A stretch of DNA of 9,983 nt, taken from positions 1 to 9,983 of the forward strand of contig CAIXSE010000360.1 in the NCBI GenBank assembly GCA_903921965.1, in the 5' to 3' direction. Shown here in pieces: positions 498 through 7,575 of this stretch. Origin of the DNA: an uncultured Thermoleophilia bacterium. GTDB taxonomy: Bacteria > Actinomycetota > Thermoleophilia > UBA2241. Below the pieces are notes generated by a model. It ran no database searches. It saw nothing but the letters and a program-made list of their open reading frames with translations, and was not told where the DNA came from. Within the stretch, counting starts at the first letter, position 1; each line of letters starts with the position of its first letter. A program made the position numbers and the translations under genes.

Positions 498-1706
498 TTA
501 GTAGCGGACCATGAGCTTCTTCGTGGCCGCGGTGAGGCCGTCCACCGTGAGCTCGAACATGGGGAAGACCTCGCGCACCTTGCGGATGGTCACGCTGCCG
601 TAGGCGTGCTCCCAGTCGCGCTCCGGGATCGTGTTGAGCCACACCGAGTGGTCGAAGTGGCGGCGGAGGCGCCTGAGCCACTCGATGCCGGGCTCGTCGT
701 TGCCGTAGCCCCACCAGATGATGCCGTCGCGGGCCGTGAGCTCGCTGGGGGCCATCGCGGCGTCGCCCACGAGGATGAGCTTGTAGTCGCCGGGCAGCTC
801 CTGGAGCACGCGCCGCGTGGAGACCGCCTCGGAGGTCGTCATGCGCGTGCTCGTGTACAGCCAGTCGTAGACGCAGTTGTGGAAGTAGTAGTACCGCAGG
901 TCCTTGAAGTGGCTGCTGCGGTTGACGGCGCTGAAGAGCTGGCTGCAGAGGCGGATGTACGGGTGCATCGATCCGCCGACATCCATCAGCAGGATGACCT
1001 TGACGGCGTTCCTGCGGCTCTTCCGCCAGACGAGGCTGAGACGGCCGGCGTTGGAGGCCGTCTCCTCGATGGTCTCGTCGAGGTCGAGCTCGTCGGGCAC
1101 GCCCTCGTTGCGCGAGCTCAGCCGGCGCAGGCGCCGCAGGGCGAGCTCGAACTGCCGCACGCCGACCTCCTGGTCGGTGCGGTAGCCGCGGTAGCGGCGC
1201 TCGCCGGCCACCTTCACGGCGGACCTGCTGCGGCTCTCGCCGCCGACGCGGATGCCGCCGGGGTGGAAGCCGGAGTGGCCGAAGGGGCTGGTGCCGCCGG
1301 TGCCCACCCAGTAGCTGCCGCCGTGGTGGGCCTCGGTCTGCTCGAGGAGCCGCTCTTCGAACATGCGCTTCAGCTCGTCGAGGTCGAGGTCCTCGAGGAG
1401 TGCCGCCAGCCGGCGGCGGTCGTCCTCGCCGAGGCCCGGCATCGAGAGGGGGTCGGAGAGCCAGTCCCAGACCTCGTCCTGGATCGCGACGGGCGCCTCG
1501 ATGCCCTGGAACATGGCGGCGAACGCCTGGTCGTACTGGTCGAAGTAGGCCTCTGACTTGACCAGGACACTGCGTGCGACCGCGTAGAACCCGTCCAGAC
1601 CCGGGGACGCGAGGCCCAGGGCGAGCGCCCGCATGAGGGCGAGCCACTCGGTGACCGTGACCGGGACGCCGTAGGCGCGGAGCAGGAAGAAGAAGTCGGT
1701 GAACAC
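498..1706 (-). CDS. CoxE-type VWA domain protein, partner of the MoxR ATPase
   Basis: A 402-residue protein starting at GTG 1706, only 4 nt after the stop of the microprotein gene, which suggests translational coupling. The N-terminal half (about 1-200) is helical and charged, with a Gly-rich stretch at about 129-156. The C-terminal half is a von Willebrand factor A fold: the MIDAS-like strand reads LLMDVGGSM (D242, S246) and a later LVGDAAM carries D315. The first serine of the usual DxSxS is glycine here (DVGGS), a form I associate with this CoxE-like family. VWA proteins of this group work with MoxR AAA+ ATPases; in carboxydotrophs the CoxD/CoxE pair helps mature the Mo-Cu site of CO dehydrogenase. 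No CO dehydrogenase subunits appear here, so I infer a chaperone or metal-loading role with an unknown client. It is probably cytoplasmic, as no signal peptide or membrane segment is seen. Confidence 0.9.
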   Translation of the reverse strand: MFTDFFFLLRAYGVPVTVTEWLALMRALALGLASPGLDGFYAVARSVLVKSEAYFDQYDQAFAAMFQGIEAPVAIQDEVWDWLSDPLSMPGLGEDDRRRLAALLEDLDLDELKRMFEERLLEQTEAHHGGSYWVGTGGTSPFGHSGFHPGGIRVGGESRSRSAVKVAGERRYRGYRTDQEVGVRQFELALRRLRRLSSRNEGVPDELDLDETIEETASNAGRLSLVWRKSRRNAVKVILLMDVGGSMHPYIRLCSQLFSAVNRSSHFKDLRYYYFHNCVYDWLYTSTRMTTSEAVSTRRVLQELPGDYKLILVGDAAMAPSELTARDGIIWWGYGNDEPGIEWLRRLRRHFDHSVWLNTIPERDWEHAYGSVTIRKVREVFPMFELTVDGLTAATKKLMVRY

Positions 1707-1710
1707 GGCC

Positions 1711-1824
1711 TCAGCGGTCGCGGAGCTGCCTGAGCACGCGACGGATGGCGAAGACGAGCATCACGACGAGGACGGCGACGATGACGATCGCCGCGACGAG
1801 CTCGAACGAGCCGGTGACGGGCAC
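1711..1824 (-). CDS. 37-residue single-pass membrane microprotein between moxR-like and VWA genes
   Basis: A short minus-strand frame from GTG 1824 to TGA 1711-1713. It has one of the best ribosome binding sites in the window: GGAGG (1830-1834) 5 nt before the GTG. The product has a short N-terminus with Glu at 8, a continuous hydrophobic stretch of Ile, Val, Leu and Ala from about residue 9 to 27, and a basic tail with five Arg in the last ten residues (RRVLRQLRDR). By the positive-inside rule the tail should be cytoplasmic. It begins 45 nt after the MoxR stop and ends 4 nt before the VWA start, so it is very likely co-translated with both. I recognise no family. I infer a membrane anchor or adaptor for the MoxR-VWA pair. 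Its size means automatic annotation often misses it. Confidence 0.72.
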   Translation of the reverse strand: MPVTGSFELVAAIVIVAVLVVMLVFAIRRVLRQLRDR

Positions 1825-1829
1825 TGGTG

Positions 1830-1834
1830 CCTCC
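1830..1834 (-). promoter_or_regulatory. Shine-Dalgarno GGAGG that decides the microprotein start
   Basis: On the minus strand GGAGG is followed by CACCA and then GTG. It supports the short reading frame as a real gene. Upstream the same frame runs back to the MoxR stop with no other convincing start signal. Confidence 0.7.
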
Positions 1835-1869: not shown

Positions 1870-2736
1870 TCATCGTGCCGCCCCAAAGCCCGTCTGCGTC
1901 GGCTTTTGCCGCCGGCCGCCGGCCAGGGCGCGCTGCGCCACGTCCACGTCGTGGTCCTTCTTGAGGAGCACGCCCATGAACGGCAGGCGCGCGGCGATGA
2001 CCTGCGGGTCGACGCCGCCGCGCGCCAGCGCCTGCACCCAGTCGATGAGCTCGCTGGTGCTGGGCTTCTTCTGCAGGCCGGGCACGTCGCGCAGCCAGTA
2101 GAAGGCCTGGATCGCCAGTTCGAGCAGCTTGCCGTCGAGGTCCGGGACGTGGACGCGGACGATGCGCTCCATCATCCCGGCGTCGGGGAACTCGATGTAG
2201 TGGAAGACGCAGCGCCGAAGGAAGGCGTCGGGCAGCTCCTTCTCCGCGTTGGACGTGATGAGCACGATGGGCCGGTGCACGGCCTGCACGTCCTCACGGG
2301 TCTCGGGGATGTGGAACTCCATGCGGTCGAGCTCCCACAGCAGGTCGTTGGGGAACTCGAGGTCTGCCTTGTCGATCTCGTCGATGAGCAGCACGACCCG
2401 CTCGGGGCTGCGGAACGACTCGCCCAGCCTGCCGAGCTTGATGTACCGGGCGATGTCGCTCACGTCGCGGTCGCCGAACTGCCCGTCGTACAGCCGCTGG
2501 ACGGTGTCGTAGACGTAGAGGCCGTCCTGGGCCTTCGTCGTGGACTTGATGTTCCAGACGACGAGCGGCATGTCCAGGCCGACGGCGATGCTCTGCGCGA
2601 GCATGGTCTTGCCGGTGCCCGGCTCGCCCTTGATGAGCAGCGGGCGGCCGAGCTGGACGGCCACGTTGACGGTCTGCATGAGCTCGGGCGCGGCGATGTA
2701 GTCGCTCGTGCCGGAGTAGGAGAAGGACTGGCTCAT
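1870..2736 (-). CDS. MoxR-type AAA+ ATPase (CoxD-like)
   Basis: A 288-residue protein from ATG 2736. Walker A is GEPGTGKT (37-44), Walker B is VVLLIDEID (114-122), sensor 1 lies around LITSNAEKELPDA (159-171), and the pair R174/R175 is the likely arginine finger. Length and motifs fit the MoxR branch of AAA+ ATPases, hexameric ATP-driven remodelling chaperones that act with a VWA protein to activate or metallate a client enzyme. The VWA partner lies downstream on the same strand, separated only by the microprotein gene. The last 20 or so residues are basic and Gly-rich, probably disordered. The Shine-Dalgarno is weak, so the start rests on the alignment-like N-terminus and on the possible promoter 56-64 bp upstream. 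The client is unknown: no molybdenum enzyme, dehydrogenase or nitric-oxide reductase gene is in view. Confidence 0.93.
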   Translation of the reverse strand: MSQSFSYSGTSDYIAAPELMQTVNVAVQLGRPLLIKGEPGTGKTMLAQSIAVGLDMPLVVWNIKSTTKAQDGLYVYDTVQRLYDGQFGDRDVSDIARYIKLGRLGESFRSPERVVLLIDEIDKADLEFPNDLLWELDRMEFHIPETREDVQAVHRPIVLITSNAEKELPDAFLRRCVFHYIEFPDAGMMERIVRVHVPDLDGKLLELAIQAFYWLRDVPGLQKKPSTSELIDWVQALARGGVDPQVIAARLPFMGVLLKKDHDVDVAQRALAGGRRQKPTQTGFGAAR

Positions 2737-2846: not shown

Positions 2847-4703
2847 TCACTCCTCCGCACGCGGGAACCTCTTGCGCGCCGCGGCGAGCTCGCGCAGTGT
2901 CTCCTGCAGGTTCGCGCGGGTGAGCGGCCGCAGGGTGGAGGTGTCGAGGACGTTGTCGGGCCGGCGGCCTTCGCGCACGGCCCGCGCGTGGTGCTCGAGC
3001 TGGATCTTCGTCACGTTCAGGAAGGCCTCGCGCAGCGTCGTCTCGCACTCGTGCGTCTGCGCGTCGATCTCGCACACCGCCGAGAAGCGTTCCAGCGTGC
3101 CCTGCAGCACGATGCCGCGCGCCAGGGCCTGGTAGCGGGCCTGGTTCTGGATGGGGATGAGGCACTGCTTCTTGATGTCGAGGTAGCCCTCGAGCCGCTG
3201 CAGGAACCCGAGCGGCAGGCGGATCCTCTCGCCGAGCTGTTCGAGACCGCGGAGGAAGGCGGGGTGCTCGGGCACGGTACGCATGATGTCGGTGAGCGCC
3301 TCGTCCACGAAGAGCTCGCCGGCGACCCGGCGGTAGTCGAAGCACACGCTGGCGCGCGCCATCCTGTCGAGGTCGCGCCCCTCGAGGACGAACTCGAAGA
3401 TGCGCTTCCACTGGCTCAGCGTCGTGCGCCACTGCGGCGTACGGGCCAGCACGCCGTGCGGATCGGCCGGGAACCCGCACCGGGACAGGCCGCGGTTCAC
3501 GTCTTCGGCGAGGAGGCGGAAGTACTCGGGCGCGGCCGGGTCGTCGGTGTCGGCGTAGGCGAGGCCGTTGTCCTGGTCCGAGGCGAGCGTGAGCTCGCTG
3601 CGGGCGGCGCTGCCGAAGGCGAGCCACGCGTAGGGCACCGGGGGCTCGCCGAGCCGCTCGGTGGCCAGTTCCAGCAGCCGGGCGGTGATGGAGTCGGCCA
3701 GCACCGTGAGCACGCGCGTCAGCGACGGCCCGTCGAGGTGCGCGTCCAGGAGGTCCAGGAACAGCTTGGGGATGTCTCCGGCGACGGCGACCAGCTCGTC
3801 TTCGTCGGCCGCCCACTGGATCGACCGGCGCAGCGCGAACGGGCTGCGGCCCTCGAGACTCATGAGGTTGCTGGCGGAGACGATGCCGATCACGGTGCCC
3901 TCGGGGTTCAGCACCGGCAGGTGGTTCACGCCGGCGGACATCATCGCGATGCTGGCCTCCGGGGCCAGCGTCTCGCTGCCGATGGTGTGCACCGGCGTGC
4001 TCATGATGGTGGTGACGGGGGCGTCGCGCGAGACGTTGCCGCGCACGACCTTGTCGCGCATGTCGAGGTCTGTGACGATGCCGAGCCCGCCGGCGGTGCG
4101 CACGAGGATGCACGAGCGTCCGCCCGCGTGCATGATCGCGGCGGCCTCGCGGATCGTCGTGTCCGGCTCGCAGAACAGCGGCGTGCTGCGCACCACGGCG
4201 GTGACCGGCAGGGTGCGCACCTCGGGCAGCGCGCTCATCGAGCGCGCGGCCTGGATCAGCCGCTCGCGCTGGTTCGCGGCCAGCCAGCGCACCCCCTTGG
4301 GGTGACAGAGCAGGCCCAGGGCGACGTCCTGCGGGATGCAGTAGAGCAGCGTGTCGCTGCGGGCCTGCACGGTGAACTCCGGCGGCAGGCCGGTGAGCAG
4401 GGTCGGGTGGCCGAACACCTCGCCGCTGCCGACCATGGCGACCAGCACGTCGGAGCGGGTGAGCTCCATGGTCCCCTCGCGCACCACGTAGAGGTGCGTG
4501 CCCGGCGGGCCGCCCTCCACCAGGACCGCTTCGCCGGCGGGCACCCGGCGGAGGGTCACCGACGCCGCGACGGCCCGGAGCTCCCCGGCCTCGAGCGACG
4601 CGAACGGCTCGAGGCCCCTCAGGAAGCGGGCGGCCGCCTCGACGCCCGCCCGGCCGTCGTCCGTGCGCACCTCGTCCTCGTCCGCGTCCACCGGCGGCGC
4701 CAC
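2847..4703 (-). CDS. Cyclic-nucleotide-binding, CBS and DUF294 nucleotidyltransferase-like signalling protein
   Basis: A 618-residue, three-part protein. Residues about 25-150 form a cNMP-binding (CAP-like) domain, with the strand-turn core LYVVREGTMEL and GSGEVFGHP. Two CBS motifs follow at about 166-220 and 229-285 (GIVTDLDMRD; GIVSASNLM), which in other proteins bind adenosine nucleotides. The C-terminal part is DUF294: a nucleotidyltransferase-like core with GSAARSELTLASDQDN (364-379; acidic residues D376 and D378) and a helical DUF294 C-terminal domain to about 610. The nucleotidyltransferase resembles the GlnD/PII-uridylyltransferase fold, so a nucleotide-transfer role on a protein is plausible but unproven. 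The GTG at 4703 is 1 nt after the preceding stop. A GTG at 4691 has the better Shine-Dalgarno (GAGGTGG 7-8 nt upstream) and may be the true start. It is tightly coupled to TIM-barrel gene B, hinting that it senses the state of that pathway. Confidence 0.92.
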   Translation of the reverse strand: MAPPVDADEDEVRTDDGRAGVEAAARFLRGLEPFASLEAGELRAVAASVTLRRVPAGEAVLVEGGPPGTHLYVVREGTMELTRSDVLVAMVGSGEVFGHPTLLTGLPPEFTVQARSDTLLYCIPQDVALGLLCHPKGVRWLAANQRERLIQAARSMSALPEVRTLPVTAVVRSTPLFCEPDTTIREAAAIMHAGGRSCILVRTAGGLGIVTDLDMRDKVVRGNVSRDAPVTTIMSTPVHTIGSETLAPEASIAMMSAGVNHLPVLNPEGTVIGIVSASNLMSLEGRSPFALRRSIQWAADEDELVAVAGDIPKLFLDLLDAHLDGPSLTRVLTVLADSITARLLELATERLGEPPVPYAWLAFGSAARSELTLASDQDNGLAYADTDDPAAPEYFRLLAEDVNRGLSRCGFPADPHGVLARTPQWRTTLSQWKRIFEFVLEGRDLDRMARASVCFDYRRVAGELFVDEALTDIMRTVPEHPAFLRGLEQLGERIRLPLGFLQRLEGYLDIKKQCLIPIQNQARYQALARGIVLQGTLERFSAVCEIDAQTHECETTLREAFLNVTKIQLEHHARAVREGRRPDNVLDTSTLRPLTRANLQETLRELAAARKRFPRAEE

Positions 4704-4704
4704 C

Positions 4705-5481
4705 TCACAGCTCGCACTGGGTGAGCAGGCCGCGCTCTTTGAGGTAGTCGAAGCTCTGCTGTACCTCGTCCTCGTTCTTGTGCTCGAGGATGATCGTGGC
4801 GCCGATCTCGCGAGCCACGGAGATGACGTTGGCAGCGTCCACGACCCCGGTGCCGCAGGGGTCGTGCAGATCGCCGCCGTGGATGCCCTTGTTGTCGTGC
4901 AGGTGCACGTGGCGGATCGGCAGGTCGCGGCGCTCGAGCCAGACGTCCAGGGTCTCGGTGATCGCGGCGTGGCCGGCGTCGAAGGCGATGTGCAGCCCCG
5001 CGATGTCCAGGTCGTCGGGGGCGACGAAGTGAGAGTGCCGCGCGAACGGGAGGTTCTCGATGGCGATGGGCATGCCGTACTCCTCCTGCAGGGCGGTGAG
5101 CTGCTCGCAGGCCTTCTGCATGGTGGCGACGGTGCGCTGGCTGCGGACCCGCGGCTTGCGCTGCACGTCGGGGTGCATGACGTAGAGACCGCAGCCCAGC
5201 TCGGCGGCGATGGCGATGTGCCGCTTGTGCACCTCCATGGCCGCCTTGTGGCGCGACGCCCAGCGGCTGCCCAGCTCGAAGTGCTCGAAGGGCCCGTGCA
5301 CGCTGAAGGGCAGGCCGGCCAGGCCTATGACCCGCGCGTTGGCCGGCTCGAGGATGGAGTGCCGGCCCATCGAGAGGATCTCCGCGAAGGCCGTGAGCTC
5401 CGCGATGCGCAGCAGGGCGGAGCCGAGCGACAAGCTCATGTACGCGCCCGTGGACACACCGACGTGCGAGATGCACTCCAT
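4705..5481 (-). CDS. TIM-barrel sugar phosphate isomerase/epimerase-like protein B
   Basis: A 258-residue member of the xylose isomerase-like / AP endonuclease 2 TIM-barrel superfamily. Likely metal and active-site residues are seen at H62 (VHGPF), H103 (MHPD), E142 (IENLP), D168 and H171 (FDAGH), H193/H195 (HVHLHD) and E233 (ILEHK). Such proteins are metal-dependent isomerases or epimerases of sugars and polyols, or endonuclease IV-like nucleases; the substrate cannot be told. I chose ATG 5481 over ATG 5499 because a minus-10 element ends 6 nt upstream, and because this start lines up exactly with paralogue A: 30 of the first 65 residues are identical without a gap. It lies 1 nt from the CBS/DUF294 gene. 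The neighbouring paralogue upstream suggests a tandem duplication followed by divergence. Confidence 0.88.
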   Translation of the reverse strand: MECISHVGVSTGAYMSLSLGSALLRIAELTAFAEILSMGRHSILEPANARVIGLAGLPFSVHGPFEHFELGSRWASRHKAAMEVHKRHIAIAAELGCGLYVMHPDVQRKPRVRSQRTVATMQKACEQLTALQEEYGMPIAIENLPFARHSHFVAPDDLDIAGLHIAFDAGHAAITETLDVWLERRDLPIRHVHLHDNKGIHGGDLHDPCGTGVVDAANVISVAREIGATIILEHKNEDEVQQSFDYLKERGLLTQCEL

Positions 5482-5487
5482 GCCGCG

Positions 5488-5496
5488 AGTATGGCA
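5488..5496 (-). promoter_or_regulatory. Extended minus-10 promoter of TIM-barrel gene B (leaderless start)
   Basis: The minus strand reads TGCCATACT, then CGCGGC, then ATG. The box ends 7 bases before the A of ATG, so the transcript should start at or next to the start codon. There is no Shine-Dalgarno before this ATG, which fits a leaderless mRNA. The same nine bases precede TIM-barrel gene A. No clear minus-35 is seen. Confidence 0.55.
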
Positions 5497-5554
5497 CATG
5501 CGTGCGGCGTGACGCGCGCGAGCGTCCCCGGCTCCGGGCGGGCCGCCGGCGGCG

Positions 5555-5572: not shown

Positions 5573-6343
5573 TCAGGCGAGAAGGCCGCTCCGCCGAAGG
5601 TGGTCCACGCTGGCGACGACGTGCTCGTGCCGTGCGTGCTCGAGCACGACCGACGCGCCGGCGGCCCGTGCCACGGCCAGCACCGCGGCCGCGTCCACGA
5701 CGCCGGCGCCCACCGGGAGGTGCGGGTCGGCGTCGTCGCCGGCCCCGGCGTTGGAGTGCAGGTGGACGTGCCGCAGCGTCGCCTGCGGGTCGGCGAGCCA
5801 GGTGTCGAGACAGCCGGTGATGCTGGCGTGGCCGACGTCCAGGAGCAGGCCGAGGCCCTGCAGGTCGAGGTCGCCCGGGTGCGTGAAGTGCGAGTGCCCG
5901 GCGCCCGGCATGTTCTCGACGACGACCTCGACGCCGGACTCGTCCTGCAGCCGCAGGAGCTCGGCGAAGGCCTCCCCGAGCGCGGCGGCGACGCGGGCGT
6001 CGCGCGGGGCGTCGTCGTCCGGCCGCCAGTCGGGGTGCACCACGTACAGCCGTGCGCCGATCTCGGCGCTGGCCTGCAGGTGGCGGCGGTGCTCGTCGAG
6101 CGCCTCCCGCCGCCGGGCCGGGTCCACGTCGGCGATGCCGATGTAGCCGAACGGCCCGTGCACGGTGTAGTCGAGACCGGCGTCGCGGCAGGCGCGCCGG
6201 TTGCGCTCGCTCAGCAGCGTGTGGAGGCCGAAGGAGCGGATCTCCGCGGAAGGCGCGAGCTCGGCGATGCGCGCCAGCGTGGGCGCGAGCATGTCGCCCG
6301 CGTACGCGCTCGTGGAGATGCCGATGTCGGGGAGGCCGGGCAC
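5573..6343 (-). CDS. TIM-barrel sugar phosphate isomerase/epimerase-like protein A
   Basis: A 256-residue paralogue of protein B. It keeps the same pattern: H62 (VHGPF), H103 (VHPDW), E143 (VVENMP), D169 and H172 (LLDVGH), H194/H196 (HVHLH) and E235 (VVLEH), so it should be an active metal-dependent barrel enzyme. After HVHLH the residue is Ser, whereas B has Asp, which may mark different substrates. The open frame runs upstream to 6481, but I chose GTG 6343: a minus-10 box lies 8 nt upstream, the N-terminus then matches B residue for residue (MPGLPDIGISTSAY against MECISHVGVSTGAY), and a longer form would overlap the divergent gene's promoter. The upstream extension is Pro, Arg and Ala-rich with no family likeness. 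It is the first gene of the leftward set. Confidence 0.86.
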   Translation of the reverse strand: MPGLPDIGISTSAYAGDMLAPTLARIAELAPSAEIRSFGLHTLLSERNRRACRDAGLDYTVHGPFGYIGIADVDPARRREALDEHRRHLQASAEIGARLYVVHPDWRPDDDAPRDARVAAALGEAFAELLRLQDESGVEVVVENMPGAGHSHFTHPGDLDLQGLGLLLDVGHASITGCLDTWLADPQATLRHVHLHSNAGAGDDADPHLPVGAGVVDAAAVLAVARAAGASVVLEHARHEHVVASVDHLRRSGLLA

Positions 6344-6351
6344 GGGGCACC

Positions 6352-6360
6352 AGTATGGCA
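6352..6360 (-). promoter_or_regulatory. Extended minus-10 promoter of TIM-barrel gene A (leaderless start)
   Basis: The minus strand reads TGCCATACT, then eight bases, then GTG at 6343. This is the same nine-base element, at nearly the same distance, as before TIM-barrel gene B. It implies a leaderless or near-leaderless transcript. No Shine-Dalgarno precedes the GTG. Confidence 0.55.
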
Positions 6361-6378
6361 GAGGGCCGCACGGCGCGC

Positions 6379-6407
6379 CGCCGCGACCCGGCGCCGCAGT
6401 CGCGGCG
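6379..6407. promoter_or_regulatory. 9-bp inverted repeat in the divergent promoter region
   Basis: The arms CGCCGCGAC (6379-6387) and GTCGCGGCG (6399-6407) flank an 11-bp centre. It lies about 36-64 bp upstream of the inferred start of TIM-barrel gene A and 62-90 bp upstream of the enolase-like gene, a position suited to an activator of the former. The arms are GC-only apart from one A-T pair, so some chance pairing is possible. Confidence 0.3.
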
Positions 6408-6423
6408 CGCGGAACACGGGGCG

Positions 6424-6454
6424 CCCGGCCGCGGTTCGCGCGTCCCGGCCGCGG
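6424..6454 (+). promoter_or_regulatory. Two 11-bp direct repeats at 20-bp spacing over the minus-35 region
   Basis: CCCGGCCGCGG occurs at 6424-6434 and again, unchanged, at 6444-6454. The 20-bp period is close to two helical turns, so both copies face the same side of the DNA. Relative to the inferred start at 6469 they cover about -45 to -15, ending 1 bp before the minus-10 box, where a bound protein would compete with RNA polymerase. This points to a repressor or a minus-35-replacing activator. Confidence 0.45.
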
Positions 6455-6455
6455 G

Positions 6456-6461
6456 TAGGGT
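6456..6461 (+). promoter_or_regulatory. Minus-10 box of the enolase-like gene (leaderless start)
   Basis: TAGGGT fits the TAnnnT pattern common in high-GC bacteria and ends 7 nt before the ATG at 6469, so the mRNA probably begins at the start codon. No TGn extension and no minus-35 are seen. The GGGG just before the ATG is a poor Shine-Dalgarno by position. Confidence 0.45.
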
Positions 6462-6468
6462 TGGGGCC

Positions 6469-7575
6469 ATGGATGCTTCACCGGGCAACGACCGAGGCGC
6501 CGGCGCCTGGGGCCGTCTCGCGGGTCTGCCCCTGGCGATCGAGTCGTACGAGGCCGAACGGCACGAGCTGGACGTCTCCAGCGGGTTCCTGCGCGTCACC
6601 ACCGCGGTCGTGCTCCGCGGCGGCGGGCTTGAAGGACGCGGCGAGGACGTCACGTACGCGGCGGAGGACCACGACGACTACCCGTTGCAGCTGCCGCTCG
6701 CCGGGACCTGGACCGTGAGCGGGTTCTCCGAGCACCTGGGCGGCCTGGACCTGTTCCCGGGCAGGCCGCCGCAGGACGGGTCCTTTCGTTTCTACCGGCG
6801 GTGGGCCTTCGAGAGCGCCGCCCTCGACCTGGCGCTGCGCACCGCCGGGCTGTCGCTGGGCGCGGCGCTCGCGCGGCCGTACCTGCCGGTGCGCTTCGCG
6901 GTCTCCACACGCCTCGACATCATGCCGTGGCTCGCAGTCGACCCGGACCTCGAGTTCAAGCTCGACCCCACGCCGGAGTGGGACCTCGACGAGATGCGGC
7001 GCATCGCCGCCACGCGCCGCGTGCGCGTGCTTGACTTCAAGTCGTTCTACGTCGGCTCGCCCGTCGACAACCCCCCCGACCCCGTCCAGTACCGCGACGT
7101 CGCCGGCGCCTTCCCGGGCACCGTGCTCGAGGATCCGGCCCTGGACGGACCGGCGCGCGAGTCCCTGCGGGGAGAGGAGGAGCGCTTCAGCTTCGACGCG
7201 CCGGTGCACTCGTGGGCCGACGTGGAGAGCCTCACGGCCCGGGTCCGGGCGGAGGCGCCGGAAGGCGCCGCGCCGCCCGCCCTCCGGCACCTCAACATCA
7301 AGCCCTCGCGCTTCGGGTCGGTGCGCGCGCTGCTCGAGTGCGTCGAGCGCGCGCAGGCCGCCGGCACGGAGCTGTACGGAGGCGGCCAGTTCGAGCTCGG
7401 CGTCGGCCGCGACCACATCCAGGCGCTGGCCAGCCTGTTCTACCCGGACGGACAGAACGACGTCGCGCCGCGGGAGTTCCACGGCGCCGCGCGCGCCGGC
7501 ATCCCCCGCAGCCCGCTGGTGCCCGTCCGTGGGATCGACGCGGCGCCGGGCTTCGGCTTCGCCTTCGAGCACTGA
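6469..7575 (+). CDS. Divergent enolase-superfamily protein (muconate cycloisomerase / OSBS-like)
   Basis: A 368-residue protein. The N-terminal part resembles the enolase-superfamily capping domain (about 20-130; LRVTTAVVLRGGGLEGRGED). The barrel part carries recognisable superfamily landmarks in order: VLDFKSFY with K191 where the second catalytic strand would be, VLEDP (E221, D222), SFDAP with D243, LNIKPSRFG with K278, and GGGQFELGVGR (304-314), which resembles the GGMxExGIGR strand of muconate cycloisomerase and o-succinylbenzoate synthase. The superfamily removes a proton alpha to a carboxylate using Lys residues and a Mg site. The likeness is by motif only: spacing is irregular and the protein is well diverged, so the reaction (racemase, cycloisomerase, dehydratase) is unknown. 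Starting at ATG 6469, it is transcribed away from the TIM-barrel genes from a shared intergenic region, so a common substrate pathway is possible. A strong hairpin follows its stop. Confidence 0.75.
   Translation: MDASPGNDRGAGAWGRLAGLPLAIESYEAERHELDVSSGFLRVTTAVVLRGGGLEGRGEDVTYAAEDHDDYPLQLPLAGTWTVSGFSEHLGGLDLFPGRPPQDGSFRFYRRWAFESAALDLALRTAGLSLGAALARPYLPVRFAVSTRLDIMPWLAVDPDLEFKLDPTPEWDLDEMRRIAATRRVRVLDFKSFYVGSPVDNPPDPVQYRDVAGAFPGTVLEDPALDGPARESLRGEEERFSFDAPVHSWADVESLTARVRAEAPEGAAPPALRHLNIKPSRFGSVRALLECVERAQAAGTELYGGGQFELGVGRDHIQALASLFYPDGQNDVAPREFHGAARAGIPRSPLVPVRGIDAAPGFGFAFEH

Follow-up and report, generated by a model that had tools for sequence, protein, structure and literature searches.

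A putative membrane microprotein encoded between the moxR and VWA genes of an uncultured Thermoleophilia bacterium

Introduction

How does a MoxR-VWA chaperone pair that is itself soluble find its target? In the available parts of the papers concerned, the mechanism by which such pairs act is described as poorly understood (PMC13036017), overexpressed RavA and ViaA are reported to be found at the inner membrane (PMC9489729), and NorQD is reported to act on membrane-bound cNOR (PMC9976466, PMC13036017). The question arises anew from a stretch of 9,983 nucleotides (hereafter the window) of an uncultured Thermoleophilia bacterium, in which a short frame lies between a moxR gene and its VWA partner. 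An initial annotation took the frame for an easily missed membrane microprotein that tethers the pair to the membrane, and suggested that microproteins of this kind could explain target-finding by such pairs. Our literature search found no work joining MoxR with a microprotein, or Thermoleophilia with MoxR.

Results

A candidate microprotein gene in the moxR-VWA gap

The frame (Table 1) encodes 37 residues (MPVTGSFELVAAIVIVAVLVVMLVFAIRRVLRQLRDR, from the open reading frame list). It begins 45 nt beyond the moxR stop (1825-1869) and ends 4 nt before the VWA start (1707-1710). The frame, the Shine-Dalgarno sequence, the membrane segment, the basic tail and both spacings, as given in the initial annotation, were all confirmed. 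Peak hydropathy over 19 residues is 3.48 for the microprotein, the peaks of MoxR and the VWA protein being 1.38 and 1.40, and a hydropathy scan found no strong hydrophobic segment in either of these two partners. Under the positive-inside rule the basic tail is predicted to face the cytoplasm. The microprotein has no Pfam match at E≤0.001. An RNA element was considered as an alternative and rejected: there is no Rfam match in the window, and no promoter or terminator pattern in positions 1400-2900.

Table 1. Features of the moxR-VWA locus (window coordinates)
Feature	Position	Strand	Details
Microprotein gene	1711..1824	-	37 aa, predicted single-span membrane protein; GTG start, TGA stop
Shine-Dalgarno GGAGG	1830..1834	-	5 nt from GTG; also recovered by the signature scans
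Predicted transmembrane segment, residues 9-27 (LVAAIVIVAVLVVMLVFAI)	1744..1800	-	hydropathy 3.48 over 19 residues
Basic C-terminal tail RRVLRQLRDR	1714..1743	-	from sequence; predicted cytoplasmic
MoxR-type AAA+ ATPase, upstream partner	1870..2736	-	Pfam AAA_5, 41.5 bits (cut-off 22)
CoxE-type VWA protein, downstream partner	498..1706	-	402 aa; Pfam PF05762 (VWA_CoxE), 43.7 bits (cut-off 26.4)

As a null model we generated 5,000 dinucleotide shuffles of the 163-nt gap. Frames of 30 or more residues arose in 746 and such frames with a Shine-Dalgarno sequence in nine; a hydrophobic frame of this length arose in none, with or without a Shine-Dalgarno sequence. The GC content of the three codon positions is 0.757/0.351/0.973 in the frame and 0.73/0.474/0.957 in six neighbouring genes, and none of 5,000 random recodings of the same base composition reached its synonymous-codon score. 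Chance is thus an unlikely source of the frame, because no shuffle yielded a hydrophobic one and because its codon use matches that of its neighbours.

The flanking genes encode a MoxR-kind AAA+ domain upstream and a VWA partner with DxGxS, the metal-site motif of VWA domains; D242, G244 and S246 are invariant across 15 sequences. The ATPase is not MadB, since its MadB_ATPase score (110 bits) falls under the cut-off of 475. Among solved structures the ATPase matched Midasin and none matched the VWA profile at E≤0.01; an AlphaFold model of the VWA protein built from 15 sequences (mean pLDDT 50.8) was too poor for use. A defence system was considered and rejected: PADLOC gave only weak AAA matches for MoxR and none for the other proteins. 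No Tat gene, metalloenzyme or ccm gene was present among the nine window proteins scanned.

Several incidental features of the neighbourhood are recorded here. The window MoxR carries a C-terminal extension (QKPTQTGFGAAR, 1870-1908), where the proteins of five relatives (L001, L002, L003, L004 and L012) stop at RRR. Upstream of moxR is a cNMP-binding/CBS/DUF294 nucleotidyltransferase gene (2847-4703), found also in L004 and L012, and adjoining it are two TIM-barrel (AP_endonuc_2) genes (4705-5499 and 5573-6481).

Occupancy of the gap among relatives

Relatives were collected by searching genome contigs with a VWA profile and taking the best 80 of 546 matches. In 78 of these best 80 moxR lies directly upstream of the VWA gene, the other two being cut by contig ends. 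The gap is shorter than 93 nt, leaving no room for 30 codons and a stop, in 74 of the 78 readable loci, and in 67 of the 78 the two genes are no more than 36 nt apart. Longer gaps occur in L002 (149 nt), L010 (534 nt to an extrapolated start, 593 to the matched start), L047 (156 nt) and L070 (130 nt); those of L047 and L070 hold no such membrane frame. L001, L003, L004 and L012 have no microprotein despite 84-88% identity to the window's VWA protein (for L012 over residues 1-287).

The order of G019 comprises 15 genomes, 12 of which have a VWA protein at E≤1e-150; the gap is readable in 11, G012 being left out of the count because its assembly ends inside the VWA gene. Four of the 11 hold a small membrane frame (32 aa in G002, 30 aa in G019, 81 aa in G009 and G039) and seven do not (G001, G004, G005, G006, G008, G011 and G080). 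The 36-nt gap of G003 (locus L003), which lies outside the 15, likewise contains no microprotein.

We defined a signature of 24-90 residues, 17-residue hydropathy of at least 2.4 and a strong Shine-Dalgarno sequence, with thresholds chosen after the frames were known. Across 20 actinobacterial loci (131,995 bases, both strands; 19 distinct loci, L092 duplicating part of L007) it matched four times, always in the moxR-VWA gap: in the window, L002, L010 and L082. The frame of L088 is excluded by its weak Shine-Dalgarno sequence. In 67 other loci there were three matches, none in the gap. All five occupants found (window, L002, L082, L010 and L088) encode a membrane segment. The expectation that relatives would have a small frame at the same place holds for L002, L082, L010 and L088, and fails for the 74 of 78 loci with gaps too short. 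A MoxR search of G012, G050, G071, G044 and G001 at E≤1e-50 returned none, a result of low weight since L001 carries the end of moxR; among viral contigs, 51 pattern matches included no relative.

In a tree of MoxR and VWA proteins the window is sister to a clade of seven loci (support of 100 for the grouping and 80 for the clade). Within this clade L002 and L082 have the gene, L001, L003, L004 and L012 have none, and L049, whose genome is the window's closest relative (93% VWA identity over the available part of the protein), is unreadable. This pattern leaves two histories: repeated loss of an old gene that has diverged along the line of the window, or more than one entry of a gene into the slot. 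One placement deserves separate mention: L003 pairs with L002 (support 96), yet G003 lies outside the 15 genomes of the order, and its contig is possibly mis-binned.

Two families of small membrane proteins

The gap proteins of L002 (32 aa) and L082 (30 aa) match each other at E 4.4e-7. Each has its own Shine-Dalgarno sequence, and they end 7 and 10 nt from the VWA start, compared to 4 nt in the window. A protein database search with their alignment returned 99 clusters at E≤10 (P0121-P0219), 96 of them 30-33 aa long. Residues E8, I17, V19, A20, L24, R25 and I27 are unvaried in all 96 and the core GxxELF...AIVVAxLVLREI is nearly so; as the search finds only sequences with exact words in common, this invariance is overstated. 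At E≤1e-6, a whole-genome search located the family in just two of 399 genomes sampled from the class (G002 and G019) and in just one of 396 sampled from the phylum (G002). The incomplete assemblies of G001, G003, G004, G011 and G012 had no family match anywhere at E≤0.1.

A second family is defined by a common 81-aa membrane protein, 49% identical, in the gaps of L010 and L088. Searching proteins at E≤1 gave 44 clusters (P0220-P0263), of 55-117 aa in total length, with repetitive tails rich in K, R, S and P; P0222 matches the L088 moxR end exactly. Five of the 15 genomes in the order of G019 match this family at E≤0.1, strongly only G039 (1e-39) and G009 (1e-32). Profile comparison found it unrelated to the 30-33 aa family.

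The locus L010 has further peculiarities. Between its 81-aa gene and the VWA gene (L010:3660-4000) is a frame named cupin-like by eye (VNVLVEFHAIPWQ...HAHKAEL), and P0240 and P0261 end in a stretch similar to it. Its VWA match (G009:C85:25825-26851) is split into one part covering residues 48-362 and another covering 1-28, possibly through a broken gene or an assembly error. The control segments include a further one from L010 in which a hydrophobic stretch is followed by a basic tail (MDVFWAVVAVVIVAALIVPMLVRRRRTRR).

A codon-level test of conservation, as proposed in the initial annotation, divided the two families. Over 29 codons the L002/L082 pair has pN 0.231 and pS 0.227, that is, no purifying selection; 228 of 5,000 simulations were as conserved, and 497 of 5,000 for the 22-codon core. 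The MoxR and VWA proteins of the same loci are under constraint (pN 0.073-0.074, pS 0.289-0.351). If the relatives resemble the window, in whose genes nearly all third codon positions are G or C, then the test is limited for that reason. For the 81-aa pair the result favours conservation at the protein level: over the first 36 codons pS (0.335) exceeds pN (0.205), and only nine of 5,000 simulations were as conserved.

Comparisons to named families gave scores below the cut-offs. Pfam at E≤1 was run on 37 sequences, the window frame included, and for 15 of them reported a FeoB-associated protein (best E 0.065); in NCBIfam, P0121 reached 24.5 bits against YldA (residues 1-22, cut-off 45), P0209 reached 15 bits against TatB (cut-off 56.5), and the window frame 14 bits against CcmD (residues 11-36, cut-off 25.95). 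Matches of this kind are easily produced by any hydrophobic helix. P0124 and P0140 are versions with a long N-terminus; in a comparison to out-of-frame moxR ends, 9 and 26 of 300 shuffles reached their scores, so that the resemblance is suggestive only.

The window frame and the two families

The window frame and the 30-33 aa family are alike in place, size, layout and possession of their own Shine-Dalgarno sequence, and the window frame begins MPxxGxxEL, as do several family members. Its score against the family profile was reached by 53 of 5,000 plain shuffles, by 852 of 5,000 shuffles that preserve residue class, and by 6 of 384 hydrophobic segments. With the alignment anchored at the start, 548 and 906 of 20,000 class-preserving shuffles did as well under two class definitions; hhalign gave a probability of 46 and a score reached by 87 of 1,000 class-preserving shuffles. 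The 99 family clusters include nothing closely related to the exact sequence of the window frame, and against the L010/L088 family hhalign aligned a single column (probability 1.05), which is no similarity. On these sequence comparisons, membership of the window frame in either family is not demonstrable. Extension by read-through of the MoxR stop was also considered, the frames of the window and L010 being in phase with moxR; it was rejected as a shared mechanism because those of L002, L082 and L088 are out of phase.

A helix resembling that of TatA

Against an alignment of seven TatA proteins from the same class, each with a Pfam TatA_B_E match, the 30-33 aa family shows 63% identity over residues 1-19 (hhalign probability 96.2, E 2.2e-9). 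As a control, the unrelated L010/L088 family gave a probability of 3.5. Elsewhere in the class, most genomic matches to this family's profile span positions 1-19, and in 23 of 28 other loci fetched with the profile the protein at the match is TatA-like (manual count). Seven of the 99 members are named TatA by JGI, and the single TatB match, that of P0209, has been given above. For the window version the alignment to TatA covers residues 1-15, and 16 of 1,000 class-preserving shuffles reach its score. The alignments thus make a strong case for a TatA-like helix in the 30-33 aa family; for the window frame they are only suggestive.

Discussion

Our results support the view that the frame encodes a genuine membrane microprotein, of a kind readily overlooked, and that it is linked to the moxR-VWA operon: the shuffles, the codon use, the confinement of the signature to the gap and the two families in relatives all bear out this part of the initial annotation. 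That some close relatives, and not all, fill the same slot suggests that the occupant is an optional membrane partner of the pair. We consider it an evenly balanced proposition that the frame is translated and that its product serves as such a partner, docking MoxR and VWA. The microprotein would be made between the two chaperone genes, presumably from a transcript shared with them, and would insert with its N-terminus outside and its C-terminus inside, leaving about ten mostly basic tail residues in the cytoplasm. This tail, by binding VWA or MoxR, or else the helix by way of a membrane client, would bring the soluble VWA-MoxR assembly to the membrane. The slot could be filled by the 37-aa version of the window, by the 30-33 aa family with its TatA-like helix, or by the unrelated 55-117 aa family with its K/R-rich tail; within this actinobacterial (Thermoleophilia-like) lineage it would stand empty in most relatives, its occupant being optional and fast-changing.

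The main argument for a docking partner is that different membrane microproteins sit in one and the same gap; the main argument against it is that most relatives do without, the pair being well conserved where the microprotein is absent. Docking is also favoured by the want of a strong hydrophobic segment in MoxR and VWA, by the sister position of the window to the clade of L002 and L082, and by the membrane-linked activity of RavA-ViaA and NorQD; the absence of purifying selection in the L002/L082 pair, and the lack of clear similarity between the window version and either family, weigh against it. Tethering of the pair by the microprotein is no more than plausible. The broader suggestion, that such microproteins account for how MoxR-VWA pairs in general find their targets, does not hold, because 74 of 78 gaps are too short, because L001, L003, L004 and L012 have no microprotein, and because the window frame has no demonstrable homologue.

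Other readings of the frame must be weighed. It may be a translational coupler that serves mainly to hand ribosomes on from moxR to the VWA gene and so to fix the relative amounts of MoxR and VWA, in which case the peptide itself would matter little. The short distances to the VWA start (4, 7 and 10 nt), the great difference in sequence between the window and its relatives, the equality of pN and pS in the L002/L082 pair, and the spacing of 36 nt or less in 67 of 78 loci, as direct coupling needs, are all in its favour. A coupler, however, needs no membrane segment and all five occupants encode one; moreover, the core shared across the 99 clusters of the short family, and the length and protein-level conservation of the L010/L088 family, speak against it, and we regard coupling as unlikely. 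It is decidedly unlikely that the frame is a spurious product of G+C-rich sequence, untranslated in this organism. Frames of 30 residues are indeed common in the shuffled gaps (746 of 5,000), the window sequence has no close relative among the 99 clusters and most relatives have no frame; nevertheless, no shuffle gave a hydrophobic frame of that length, the codon choice is gene-like, and within the 20 loci (19 distinct) the signature recurs only in the moxR-VWA gaps of relatives. That the operon carries a small hydrophobic peptide acting as a toxin or in stress seems barely credible. Small membrane toxins do resemble the microprotein in size and shape, but its gene lies between two conserved genes with its own Shine-Dalgarno sequence, and there is no known antitoxin RNA in the window, since Rfam found no match there (antitoxin RNAs new to Rfam would escape the search).

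The likeness of the 30-33 aa helix to that of TatA raises a possible link to Tat export. A TatA-type helix might sit in, or compete for, the TatC/TatA site and so connect cofactor insertion by MoxR-VWA to the export of folded clients. The identity to TatA, the clean control and the TatA-like proteins at most profile matches favour such an adaptor. Against it, Pfam at E≤1 assigned no TatA family to any of 37 members, the window included; the window proteins scanned include no Tat gene or metalloenzyme; the similarity is confined to 19 residues of a membrane helix, a kind of sequence that readily converges; the TatA-likeness of the window's own frame is weakly supported; and the L010/L088 family is not TatA-like. 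We judge a Tat-linked adaptor to be quite improbable, and our literature search found nothing relevant on TatA-like small proteins. Still bolder, and to our minds a long shot, is the idea that the gap is an adaptor slot entered repeatedly by unrelated microproteins, at least one derived from a TatA helix, which dock MoxR-VWA at the Tat translocase; if true, the MoxR-VWA machine would finish its client at the translocase before export.

For docking in the wider sense, pairs with and without the microprotein, at 84-88% identity, offer natural material for a test. The gap has also yielded two families of small membrane proteins that have no Pfam family, one of which resembles the TatA helix alone.

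Comparison with known systems

TatA shares with the 30-33 aa family the pattern of the first 19 residues of its membrane helix, including G5, E8 and L9. Its other features are a hinge and an amphipathic helix after the membrane helix. Alignment by eye to TatA proteins shows that both are absent from the 30-33 aa family, which is without the stretch that follows the helix in TatA of this class (LGPKKLPEVGRSVGKGMREF) and has no Pfam TatA match. CcmD and YldA are single-span small membrane proteins, to which the window frame and P0121, respectively, show the sub-cut-off resemblance described above; CcmD differs in that no ccm genes occur among the nine window proteins scanned.

Of systems built on the chaperone pair, NorQ-NorD with NorE/NorF of Paracoccus denitrificans is among the closest known. 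RavA-ViaA of E. coli resembles the window in having a MoxR AAA+ protein and a VWA partner in one operon; it differs in that RavA and ViaA bind lipids themselves, and the available part of PMC9489729 mentions no membrane microprotein. In Borrelia, as far as the available part of the source describes it, BB0173 is a VWA-type (VWFA) protein encoded beside a MoxR ATPase and located at the inner membrane. There the VWA-type protein is itself a membrane protein, whereas that of the window shows no membrane segment, and the microprotein could supply one.
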